From NCBI GenBank assembly GCA_017849585.1, contig JAFIGT010000003.1, positions 124,001 through 188,000 on the forward strand: a DNA stretch of 64,000 bases, given 5' to 3'. The position numbers were made by a program, and so were the translations under genes. The DNA comes from Verrucomicrobium sp. Its GTDB lineage: Bacteria > Verrucomicrobiota > Verrucomicrobiia > Methylacidiphilales > UBA1321. The notes beneath the pieces are model-generated. The model made no database searches. It was given only the letters and a program-made list of their open reading frames with translations, and was not told where the DNA came from. Positions 36,168 through 39,967 of this stretch are shown in pieces; position 1 is the first letter of the stretch; the number at the start of each line of letters is the position of its first letter.

Positions 36168-36779
36168 CTACGTCAGCTTCGACCAGATCGTCGGATAGAG
36201 TTTCTTTGCGCAATCCGGGCAAATGCCGTGGGTGAAATCGATATCAAGGTGCGTCTCGAAATAGTCCTCCACGTTCTGCCAATACTCCTTGTCATCCCGA
36301 ATCTTTTTGCAGTTTGCGCACATCGGCAGCAATTCCCGCAGGCGACTGAGTTCTTGGATATCCTCGAGGATGACGACTACGAGCTGGCGTCCGAGATAAT
36401 TCAGGGGCGAGGTGGTGACCAGAAAAAGAGCCTCGGCCACGTTATCGCCGACCTTGAGCTCCATCTTCAATTTTTGTCGTGTTTGCTTCTGCCCGGATAG
36501 CGATTCGTTCACTGACTTGCGGATTACGCAGCCGGAGCAGGCCGGGCCGCGTCCACAGCCTTCCTCGACATCCTTCGCATGCAGGCAATGCAACACTTCG
36601 CCCGCGCGATGGCTGATGACCATGGCGCGGTCGCGGGAAAGCATTTTCGCAGCGGCGGCATTGTAATCCACAATCCGCACATCCTCTTCCACGACAAAAA
36701 CAGGAGAGGGGATAGCATCCAGGATGCCACGATAAAAGCCGTCCATCCGTTTCGCTTCGTCGCTCTCATCCCGGCTCAT
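36168..36779 (-). CDS. PAS-domain protein with Cys-rich insert and C-terminal zinc-like motif
   Basis: This 203-residue soluble sensor has a PAS core (MDGFYRGILDAIPSPVFVVEED... to VVILEDI) interrupted by HCLHAKDVEEGCGRGPACSGC, a Cys cluster that may bind metal. The C-terminal tail (MCANCKKIRDDKEYW...HGICPDCAKKLYP) has two CxxC-type pairs and is typical of PAS proteins attached to signalling modules. It lacks any kinase or output domain, so it must act through a partner. It is the last gene of the recG operon, 25 bp after the pseudo-receiver/FGE gene. Confidence 0.75.
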   Translation of the reverse strand: MSRDESDEAKRMDGFYRGILDAIPSPVFVVEEDVRIVDYNAAAAKMLSRDRAMVISHRAGEVLHCLHAKDVEEGCGRGPACSGCVIRKSVNESLSGQKQTRQKLKMELKVGDNVAEALFLVTTSPLNYLGRQLVVVILEDIQELSRLRELLPMCANCKKIRDDKEYWQNVEDYFETHLDIDFTHGICPDCAKKLYPTIWSKLT

Positions 36780-36804: not shown

Positions 36805-38739
36805 TTATTTTTCCAGTGGAGGTTTGTCGCTGACGCAACGAAAGCCGATCCAGGGTGAGCGCGATTCCGGTAACTGATTCTTGATGCGTCGGCTCAGCTC
36901 GAGATCTTCGGGTTTGCTGATCAGGTAATTACCACCACGCACAATGGCCGCGTCTTCCACTCCGTAAAGCGCCTTCGGCTCGATGGTGTCAGTCCATTCA
37001 CTGACGTTGCCCGCCATGTCGCGAACTCCATACGGACTCAGGTCGCCGGTAAGGGCATCCACGGGCGATACCCCATAGTAGCCGTCATTTTTTCCGCTAT
37101 CCGCGGGACGCTTCGGCACCATGTCGGAGCCTGTGTTGGCTTTCTTTGGATCGAAACCGTTTCCCCAGGGGTAGATGTTGCCCTTGGAACCGCGTCCCGC
37201 CTTTTCCCATTCCTGTTCGGTGGGCAACCGCTTGCCCGCCCATTTCGCATAAGCCTGGGCATCGTACCAGTCGACGTTGAAGACAGGGGAATCGAGCGTG
37301 ATCTTCTGCCCGTTATAGGCCACGCCTTGACGAATGCTTTCGATGATTGTCTCCCAATCCTTGGGCGTATGATCCTTGTTCTTGCTCTTTTGCGAGCGAT
37401 GGTCAAATGCTTCGGAGCTTCCGGCTTTTTCAATGGCGCGGAGGAAGCGGAGGTATTGGCCGATGGTCACCTCATACTCGTCGATATAGTAGCTGCCGGT
37501 CTTGCCTTCTCCCTCTTGGTAGACAAAGGAGCCTGCCGGAATGTGGAGCATCTTCTTGAAATCTTTCGACGGCGCTTCGTACAGGAAGGAAAATGCCATC
37601 CACGCAAAGAACGCCAGCACCAGCAGGATGAAGCCGCCTATACTGAGGAACATTGCCGTGCGCTTGCGTTTTTTTTCTACCTCGATGGCCTGCTTGGCGA
37701 TCTTGGTCTCCTTGCTGACGACTACTTCACGTTTCGGTGCGAGTTCCGTATCCAGAATTTGCGCCTGTCGTCCGACGTCGGAAAGGACCACATCAGGCTG
37801 CTTCATCAACGCCAAAAGATCGATAAGCCGTTGCGGCAAGCCACCAGATGGAGGCAGGATTCGCTCCAGGCTTTCCGCCAAATGATTGAGTGTGGCCGTC
37901 GGGCTGGGCAGTTCCGATAGCCGGGGATCGACGCAATTGAGGAGTTTGATCACGCCGTTGTCTGCGATGGTGATGTCCTCCGCGGTCACCTCGCTGTGGT
38001 GGTACTGGTGGGACTCCCAGAATGCCAGCACCGTTGTGACTGTATGGATGAGCCGCGCTGCCAGTCGGGGGTCCACATGCTGGCCCACGTCGAGATAACT
38101 TTGCAAGGTGCGCGCCTGCCAGAATTCGCGGGCAAAGAAATAGCGGCCCTTGTGCTCGCCCGCCACGAACACGGCGGTGACATTCGGGTGGCCCGCGCGG
38201 GCCATGGAGGCCGCCAGTTCCTGAAACGCCGTAATTTCCTCCGCGCTTGCGCCCGCACGCAAGACGCTGACGAAGACCTTGCGTTTGACGCCCTGATCGA
38301 AGGCTTCGTAGCAATCGCCCCAACGGTCGCGGCCGACGTACTTGCCTACCTTGTAGGGTGGCCAGACCTGACCCTCAACCGCGCCGAGCGCATCGACTAC
38401 CATGGCCGAAAGCGTCTGCATGTCGAGGGGCGGTGTGAACTGCGCCACGCCCTCCAGGTAGGGCTGATACTCCCTGAGATCGTAACTGGTCACCACAATG
38501 ACCGGGCAGTGTGGGAGGCGTTGGCGGAAATTATAGAGCATTGTCAGGCCGTCCACTCCCTCGAGGTAAACCTCGGTGATCAGCAGATCGACCGAGTCGG
38601 TGTTTGCATGAGCCATCTCGGCATCGGGACCGCTCGACACCGCGATCACCTGCATATCCGCGGCGACGTCGGCCAAGATTCCACTCAGCGTTGCAAACAG
38701 CTCCGGATTGGGCTGCACCAATAAAACAGTCTTAGCCAT
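36805..38739 (-). CDS. Degenerate receiver + degenerate kinase + membrane helix + FGE-like domain fusion
   Basis: The 644-residue chain has four parts. Residues 1-120 look like a response-regulator receiver, but the phosphorylated Asp is Glu (E56 in LLITEVYLEGVDG) and the acidic pair near the start is missing. Residues 127-330 follow a protein-kinase layout, but the HRD loop reads HHSEVTAEDI (247-256), DFG reads LNC, and the VAIK Lys is absent. One membrane helix spans about 363-387. Residues 400-640 are a SUMF1/formylglycine-generating-enzyme domain (EYEVTIGQY, KRLPTEQEWEKAGRG, DMAGNVSEW, IGFRCV), with a single C-terminal Cys rather than the catalytic pair. Three probably inactive modules suggest a signalling scaffold. 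Confidence 0.75.
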   Translation of the reverse strand: MAKTVLLVQPNPELFATLSGILADVAADMQVIAVSSGPDAEMAHANTDSVDLLITEVYLEGVDGLTMLYNFRQRLPHCPVIVVTSYDLREYQPYLEGVAQFTPPLDMQTLSAMVVDALGAVEGQVWPPYKVGKYVGRDRWGDCYEAFDQGVKRKVFVSVLRAGASAEEITAFQELAASMARAGHPNVTAVFVAGEHKGRYFFAREFWQARTLQSYLDVGQHVDPRLAARLIHTVTTVLAFWESHQYHHSEVTAEDITIADNGVIKLLNCVDPRLSELPSPTATLNHLAESLERILPPSGGLPQRLIDLLALMKQPDVVLSDVGRQAQILDTELAPKREVVVSKETKIAKQAIEVEKKRKRTAMFLSIGGFILLVLAFFAWMAFSFLYEAPSKDFKKMLHIPAGSFVYQEGEGKTGSYYIDEYEVTIGQYLRFLRAIEKAGSSEAFDHRSQKSKNKDHTPKDWETIIESIRQGVAYNGQKITLDSPVFNVDWYDAQAYAKWAGKRLPTEQEWEKAGRGSKGNIYPWGNGFDPKKANTGSDMVPKRPADSGKNDGYYGVSPVDALTGDLSPYGVRDMAGNVSEWTDTIEPKALYGVEDAAIVRGGNYLISKPEDLELSRRIKNQLPESRSPWIGFRCVSDKPPLEK

Positions 38740-38759: not shown

Positions 38760-39959
38760 TTAGTTTGCCGCAGGAAAGAACTTCAACAGGTTGTCTGGCT
38801 CGGCCCGTTCATCCTGCAATTTTCCATCATAGTAAATCCGCAACATATAGCCGTAGTACTTCTGATTGTAGATCCGTGCCTGGTCCGGCGAAAGCAGATA
38901 CGTTGCCATGAGTGTCTCACGCTGGCCGTTGGCCCAGGTCTGGCGCGAACCGAGGAAATTGACCTTCAACTGTGCGCGGCTTGGCACGATGGCTCCGCTT
39001 GCCTGCAGGTCGTAGAAGTACAGTTTGATGTCCACCTTGCCCGGCTGAATTCCACCGGGGATGATTCCCGCTCCCAACACCACGCGCATGGTGAACTCGT
39101 TGTTCGAGCCATTGCTCGCCGTATTGGTCTTTTCGATGCGGTCCACAAAAAGCGCCCGGGTGGCCGTCACGGGTGCCGCCGGGGTCGTCGGAGCCGATAC
39201 CGTCGCAGCCGGTGGCGCATTATTGGCGCTGGTGTTGGTCGAACGGGAATCGATCAGCACCAGTTGTTCGCGAGCCAGATTGTAGTTGCTGCCCGCCGCG
39301 GAACCCAGATCGACCACGCGCTGCCAATAGGTACGCGCCTTGTCCGGTTCTTTTTCCAAAGTCATCAATCTGGCCAGATTCACCAGCGTCGTCGAATCGC
39401 GCGAGTCGAGCGCCTCGGCCTTGAACAAGGCCAAAGCCGCCAGGCGCAAATCACCCTGCGTCTGGAACCGCTCGGCCTCCTCGTTCAAGGCTTTCACCCT
39501 CTGGGCCGGATCTTCCGACGCCGCCACGGCCAGACGTCCCGGCGTCGGTACGGGGGTAATGCGAGCGGGGGCCGTCGGAACGGGTGCTGGCGGAGTCACG
39601 GTCTGTACGGGTGCGGAAGCGGATGGTGTGGGAGCGACCACCGGCGCAGGTGCCGGACGGGTGGGAGTCTGCGCGACTTGGGCTTGGTTGGGCAATGGCG
39701 GCGCGCTGGTATCGATCGTGACGACCCGTCGAAAGTAAAAAACCAGAAAAATAGCAGCCACCTGCACCAGCAGTACAAGGCCTGCCAGATACAGCGCGAT
39801 CGAATAAGTCTTTGGCCGTAAACGCTTGGCCAAGAGGGTTGCCTCCATCCCTTCAGTGTTACTGCCAATGGGCGGGAGTGTCAATGAAGGGGTGTTCAAG
39901 AGTTGCCCCAGTGCGCTGGGAGCCGAGCGATCGGGATCCTGCTCCGCTCGGTCCGCCAT
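38760..39959 (-). CDS. Membrane-anchored TPR-like protein of unknown function
   Basis: A 399-residue protein has one membrane helix (about 52-77), a long Pro/Ala/Thr-rich linker, and TPR-like helices (EEAERFQTQGDLRLAALALFK, then LMTLEKEPDKARTYWQRV). The C-terminal beta-rich domain of about 130 residues contains FTMRVVLGAGIIPGG and VDIKLYFYDLQASG. I do not recognise the last domain. It starts 8 bp after recG (ATG 39959, following a GTG) and ends 20 bp before the fused pseudo-receiver gene. A shared role with that protein is inferred from the tight spacing. Confidence 0.6.
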   Translation of the reverse strand: MADRAEQDPDRSAPSALGQLLNTPSLTLPPIGSNTEGMEATLLAKRLRPKTYSIALYLAGLVLLVQVAAIFLVFYFRRVVTIDTSAPPLPNQAQVAQTPTRPAPAPVVAPTPSASAPVQTVTPPAPVPTAPARITPVPTPGRLAVAASEDPAQRVKALNEEAERFQTQGDLRLAALALFKAEALDSRDSTTLVNLARLMTLEKEPDKARTYWQRVVDLGSAAGSNYNLAREQLVLIDSRSTNTSANNAPPAATVSAPTTPAAPVTATRALFVDRIEKTNTASNGSNNEFTMRVVLGAGIIPGGIQPGKVDIKLYFYDLQASGAIVPSRAQLKVNFLGSRQTWANGQRETLMATYLLSPDQARIYNQKYYGYMLRIYYDGKLQDERAEPDNLLKFFPAAN

Positions 39960-39967
39960 CACGCTGG

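Follow-up and report, generated by a model that had tools for sequence, protein, structure and literature searches.

A single-pass pseudokinase family with receiver-like and FGE-like domains in the class Verrucomicrobiae, most likely a membrane-spanning scaffold

The locus described here raises the question of what a membrane protein does when each of its three domains has lost its catalytic residues. The window is the whole stretch of DNA analyzed, 64,000 nucleotides of a Verrucomicrobium sp. contig (JAFIGT010000003.1, positions 124,001 to 188,000 of the forward strand), and all coordinates refer to it. The gene is real and without interruption, according to the ORF list and the translation, and a genome search found one full-length copy of its product in the genome. 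The following features are discussed:

36805..38739 (-), 644-aa protein with receiver, pseudokinase, transmembrane (TM) and FGE-like parts (ORF, Pfam)
38377..38739 (-), receiver-fold domain, residues 1-121 (Response_reg, AlphaFold2, PDB receivers)
38572..38574 (-), Glu56 codon, where receivers have the phospho-Asp (alignment to the phospho-Asp of solved receivers)
37732..38367 (-), pseudokinase domain with shortened C-lobe, residues 125-336 (PknA profile match; Foldseek to PknA/PknB and MviN)
38266..38268 (-), Ser158, at the VAIK Lys position (alignments)
37975..37998 (-), catalytic-loop stretch H248-D255, HSEVTAED instead of HRDLKPEN (alignments)
37936..37938 (-), Asn268, at the DFG Asp position (alignments)
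37591..37659 (-), hydrophobic helix in the membrane, from about residue 361 to 383, following KKRKR (sequence; AlphaFold2)
36817..37563 (-), FGE-like ectodomain, residues 393-641 (PF03781, SUMF2)
36904..36921 (-), I607-D612, site of the Cys pair in active FGE (alignment to human FGE)
38760..39962 (-), upstream partner gene, 20 nt from the pseudokinase gene, encoding a membrane anchor, a Pro-rich linker and TPR repeats, with a beta domain at the C-terminus (adjoins the pseudokinase gene)

Domain layout and missing catalytic residues

Pfam detects Response_reg at residues 5-88 (E 3.6e-9, 37.2 bits over a cut-off of 30.2), PK_Tyr_Ser-Thr at residues 132-266 (E 2.1e-8, above its own cut-off) and FGE-sulfatase (PF03781) at residues 413-636 (E 1e-47, 163.4 bits, cut-off 23.3). 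The AlphaFold2 model, built from a nine-sequence alignment (mean pLDDT 77.9; receiver about 60-79, the lowest of the three domains), contains a (beta-alpha)5 receiver, a two-lobed kinase, an FGE-like domain and a long helix at residues 348-386. Structure prediction had been proposed as a check in an earlier note made from the sequence alone, and Pfam, AlphaFold2 and Foldseek agree with its view that all three domains have recognisable folds. The same note had placed the last domain outside the cytoplasm by means of a single membrane helix. The KKRKR stretch just ahead of the hydrophobic helix fits this topology, since by the positive-inside rule the receiver and kinase-like domains would be cytoplasmic and the FGE-like domain would lie outside.

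The profile of the kinase region matches PknA (E 2.6e-26) and the top PDB matches in Foldseek are PknA/PknB kinases (TM-score 0.60-0.68 by target length). The bilobal fold of Ser/Thr protein kinases is present, but the VAIK Lys, the HRD Asp (E250 in that column) and the DFG Asp are all replaced, as the earlier note had read them. The activation segment and the C-lobe appear shortened, because three helices of about 70 residues are left after N268 in the model. Residue counts were made on 87 relatives across the class Verrucomicrobiae; in the most divergent of them the catalytic loop could be aligned only with uncertainty. The HRD Asp occurs in 0/87 members (column 250), and the DFG position holds Asn in 77, Gly in 6, His in 4 and Asp in none; the proposed check on conservation of the missing kinase residues thus came out positive for both residues in every relative. 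With a kinase fold that lacks catalytic motifs and is conserved as a family, the protein qualifies by sequence and fold as a bacterial pseudokinase.

That the kinase fold carries out some other kind of catalysis, as SelO and SidJ do, seems improbable. The usual metal ligands of kinases are swapped, with D255 (37975-37977) and N268 (37936-37938), in 35 of the 87 members, the VAIK Lys is retained in 21, and non-canonical activities are known (PMC12599244). However, the catalytic loop and the VAIK site vary freely, and metal-site residues besides N268 are poorly conserved.

In the ectodomain, I607 and D612 stand opposite Cys336 and Cys341, the Cys pair of human FGE, as read from the alignment. 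The fold is that of FGE, without the catalytic pair, as had been claimed. None of the 87 members has the pair in register; in two of them the region does contain two Cys, off the motif. The nearest solved FGE-fold relative is SUMF2 (3.1e-32), an FGE paralogue that lacks the Cys pair. Absence of the pair is common among FGE-fold proteins. Judging from the residues lost, the protein is probably inactive both as a kinase and as an FGE. A DGR variable protein of the FGE/C-type lectin kind was also considered and rejected: no hypervariable lectin region was found and dN/dS of the FGE domain is 0.013.

The receiver site in the window and in its relatives

The earlier note had seen Glu (E56) in place of the phosphorylated Asp and an absent acidic pair, and alignment to solved receivers bears this out: the domain has the PF00072 fold, the acidic pair is Q9-P10, T84 is retained and the Lys position is also lost, being occupied by P103. 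E56 is invariant only inside the GTDB family of the window (f1), where Glu is found in 11/11. Across the 87 members the site holds Glu in 34, Asp in 28 and other residues in 9, with nothing aligned in 16, so that the expected conservation of Glu held within the GTDB family but not beyond it. A complete phosphorylatable site (acidic pair, Asp, Thr/Ser and Lys) occurs in 14/87 members, such as L034, L114 and L124-L127, and therefore a degenerate receiver does not characterise the family as a whole. Relatives with intact residues, which the earlier note had named as evidence against its reading, thus exist for the receiver, whereas none was found with the HRD or DFG Asp or with the Cys pair. On a quickly built tree of the pseudokinase-to-FGE part, which leaves out the receiver, contains unresolved forks and does not determine the direction of change, the site must have switched between Asp and Glu six times or more.

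In pseudo-receivers the Asp is most often replaced by Glu, which in some cases, but not always, mimics phosphate, possibly by way of the conserved Thr and Lys (PMC12632262). The Lys is missing in 29 of the 34 Glu members versus 9 of the 28 Asp members (Fisher p 2e-5, a value that ignores relatedness). With P103 at the Lys position, the usual Glu-Lys contact is impossible in the window protein. Since Glu mostly stands without its Lys partner, here and among the Glu members, the suggestion that Glu56 simply mimics the phosphorylated state appears weakly supported.

These observations bear on a view of the protein as an inside-out regulator, which we consider unlikely. A histidine kinase would phosphorylate the receiver, the pseudokinase, perhaps bound to a nucleotide, would change shape and act on partners of the ectodomain, and in the lineage of the window Glu56 would lock the switch on. 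The 14 relatives with all receiver-site residues intact are in line with such a regulator, as are the occasional phosphate mimicry by Glu and the K+2 residue of the window receiver, Leu105; Leu at K+2 is listed among the residues that favour the active state (PMC12632262). The uneven loss of Lys described above argues against it, and so do the 16 members without an aligned residue at the site.

Spread, constraint and gene neighbours of the family

Twelve genomes of the GTDB family were searched and ten have a full-length match; in an eleventh (G009) the receiver is split from the rest by a long linker. About 120 of 286 sampled genomes of the class, over a third, carry the family, by a hand count of those among the matches listed that span both the kinase and the TM region. 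At the looser limit of E 1e-30, 154 pass, and these include unrelated kinases and FGE proteins. In a phylum-wide sample the family occurs only in the class Verrucomicrobiae. The N-terminus varies: some members have a receiver, one a receiver plus a DUF4388-like region (L127, by eye) and others neither, while L033 has DUF4388 and no aligned receiver in an ORF that starts at the contig end. In L150-L152, L156 and L163, with ORFs of up to 1466 aa, receiver and pseudokinase are set far apart by very long linkers that are rich in Pro/Ala or resemble coiled coils.

Three domains without catalytic residues could indicate a decaying pseudogene or a local oddity. However, dN/dS against G010 (95% identical) is 0.027 for the whole gene. 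Among its parts the receiver has the highest value (0.062), followed by the pseudokinase (0.041), the FGE-like domain (0.013) and the linker with the TM segment (0.009). All parts of the gene are maintained under purifying selection. This constraint in every domain, the class-wide conservation and the same kinase and FGE losses in every relative rule out decay, to which we give almost no credence. The losses in 87/87 relatives and the low dN/dS point instead to an old, maintained pseudokinase family. No published description of the architecture was found in the open-access literature, as the earlier note had thought possible, although the architecture is widespread in the class and not singular. 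For a pseudokinase family, the domain combination is unusual.

Two genes recur beside the family. Of the 68 family loci whose upstream sequence is long enough, 45 have the TPR gene as their upstream neighbour on the same strand, and relatives of this gene occur in most genomes of the window's GTDB family (matches below E 1e-28 in 10/12). Across loci its product is anchored by one membrane helix, and a low-complexity linker joins this helix to TPR repeats and a beta domain at the C-terminus. Foldseek gave generic TPR matches for the helical part, the TPR domain of LpoP among them, and nothing convincing for the beta domain. On the downstream side, the adjacent gene in 48/84 loci codes for a secreted protein roughly 300 residues long. 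A representative had no Pfam match, and from its sequence we read it as probably beta-rich. In the window genome this gene is unlinked and lies on another contig (G000:C10:63228-64055); it is present in 12/12 genomes of the GTDB family.

The arrangement is not universal. Relatives in genus g2 have neither gene adjacent, and of three genomes examined closely (L222, L223 and L230), L222 and L230 have the TPR and beta genes without the middle gene. In L223 (2886-3956, (-), family f16) the slot between TPR and beta genes is occupied by a receiver-like and DUF4388-like protein without kinase or FGE-like domain, as judged by eye. The TPR and beta genes can thus be retained where the receiver/pseudokinase half is gone, which argues that their products do not require the pseudokinase protein.

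In 5/53 family loci, and in six further loci, the gene after the cluster codes for an N-acetylmuramoyl-L-alanine amidase. The amidase-bearing loci, some with and some without the pseudokinase between TPR and beta genes, are L033, L040, L041, L174, L176, L222-L224, L226, L227 and L230. This recurrent neighbour suggests, as a hint, a control of cell-wall remodelling. In the window, a gene 25 nt downstream of the pseudokinase gene (36168-36779, (-)) encodes a PAS-domain protein whose Cys-rich insert reads GCGRGPACSGC and whose tail reads CANCKK...CPDC. It was rejected as a conserved partner, being kept in G010 (87% identity) and not found adjacent in G011 and four other relatives.

The neighbours also bear on whether the protein may work as an outside-in receptor, in which the FGE-like domain, with its C-type-lectin-type fold, would bind an external ligand and signal through the pseudokinase to cytoplasmic partners. 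FGE/C-type-lectin folds are the ligand-binding domains of putative bacterial sensors (PMC10907252), and the strong constraint on the ectodomain would fit this role. But no conserved cytoplasmic output gene is adjacent, and the signal or membrane segments of the two conserved neighbours place both outside the cytoplasm. We rate such a receptor as a little less likely still than the inside-out regulator.

Known systems and the proposed role

The best functional model, by analogy, would be EssB/YukC of T7SSb, a single-pass membrane pseudokinase with a scaffold role that has lost all three motifs and has a reduced activation loop (PMC12599244). The window protein is likewise single-pass, with a pseudokinase that is predicted to be cytoplasmic, devoid of all three motifs and a reduced activation loop, but EssB/YukC differs in its ectodomain, its phylum and its tie to type VII secretion. 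EssB was not among the matches shown for the kinase-region profile and Foldseek. The likeness is one of design, and homology is set only at the kinase fold. Genes of T7SSb are not associated with the family: the recurrent neighbours are TPR, beta-rich and amidase genes, and in the window recG and PAS genes.

Other systems share single parts. MviN (Rv3910), of the ActPs3 family, has a pseudokinase that belongs to a MurJ-like flippase, and resembles the window protein in its bacterial pseudokinase fold (Foldseek TM-score 0.56-0.58 by target). It has no receiver or FGE-like domain, and its DFG and HRD are replaced differently (PMC12599244). Receptor Ser/Thr kinases of the PknA/PknB/StkP type, the closest by profile and fold, also combine a cytoplasmic kinase, one TM helix and an ectodomain, but are catalytically intact and have PASTA or other ectodomains; the window protein reaches 47.6 bits with NCBIfam PknB, whose cut-off is 450. 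In L046, L058 and L112, which come from other phyla, an active Ser/Thr kinase with HRD and DFG intact is likewise followed by an FGE-like domain. SUMF2 and other FGE-fold proteins without the Cys pair include GldK/PorK, a component of the T9SS ring complex that is not fused to a kinase. A T9SS component was rejected because the GldK and GldJ scores are far too low (GldK 50.9 bits, NCBIfam cut-off 350). Also rejected was the anti-phage kinase PD-T4-6, whose PADLOC match (1e-15) covers only the generic kinase fold; the catalytic residues of such an active kinase are absent from the window protein. Pseudo-receivers share the receiver fold without the acceptor Asp, with Glu a frequent replacement (PMC12632262); the window family differs in fusing the receiver to a pseudokinase and in the full site that some relatives retain. 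The bacterial pseudokinase families that have been reviewed are ActPs1-3, GLW, CP1, DYD and DLHK, and that review makes no mention of an FGE/sulfatase domain or of Verrucomicrobia (PMC12599244).

The protein is most likely a membrane-spanning scaffold that ties the cytoplasm to the envelope rather than an enzyme, because catalytic residues are lost in three domains, relatives occur class-wide and the neighbours are usually two genes for envelope proteins. The earlier note had proposed a scaffold that carries information across the membrane; a scaffold-like, membrane-spanning protein agrees with the kinase and FGE residues missing in all relatives checked, while the transfer of information is left as a proposal. 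On balance we lean, by a little, towards a single-pass inner-membrane pseudokinase scaffold in an uncharacterised envelope complex with the TPR and beta-rich proteins. In the cytoplasm, the receiver-like and kinase-like domains would serve as protein-binding modules, and the FGE-like domain outside would bind partner proteins without catalysis. The complex would consist of the pseudokinase, the upstream TPR protein and the secreted beta-rich protein, encoded by the downstream gene in many relatives. In members with an intact receiver the complex could be tuned by phosphorylation, and in the lineage of the window the receiver may have turned into a fixed, non-phosphorylatable module. Against such a complex stand the unlinked beta gene of the window genome, the g2 relatives without adjacent neighbours and the loci that lack the receiver/pseudokinase half. 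A wider form of the proposal, possible but doubtful, puts the pseudokinase at the core of a transenvelope complex of the class Verrucomicrobiae that has not been described before; repeated switching of the receiver between Asp and Glu would have given regulated and unregulated forms of it.

Pseudokinases and pseudo-receivers are common in bacteria, but for most of them the mode of action is not understood (PMC12599244, PMC12632262). This family joins both in one chain, is widely present, has two conserved partner genes and offers natural Asp and Glu versions of the same site, and may thus be a practical system in which to study how pseudo-receivers and pseudokinases function.
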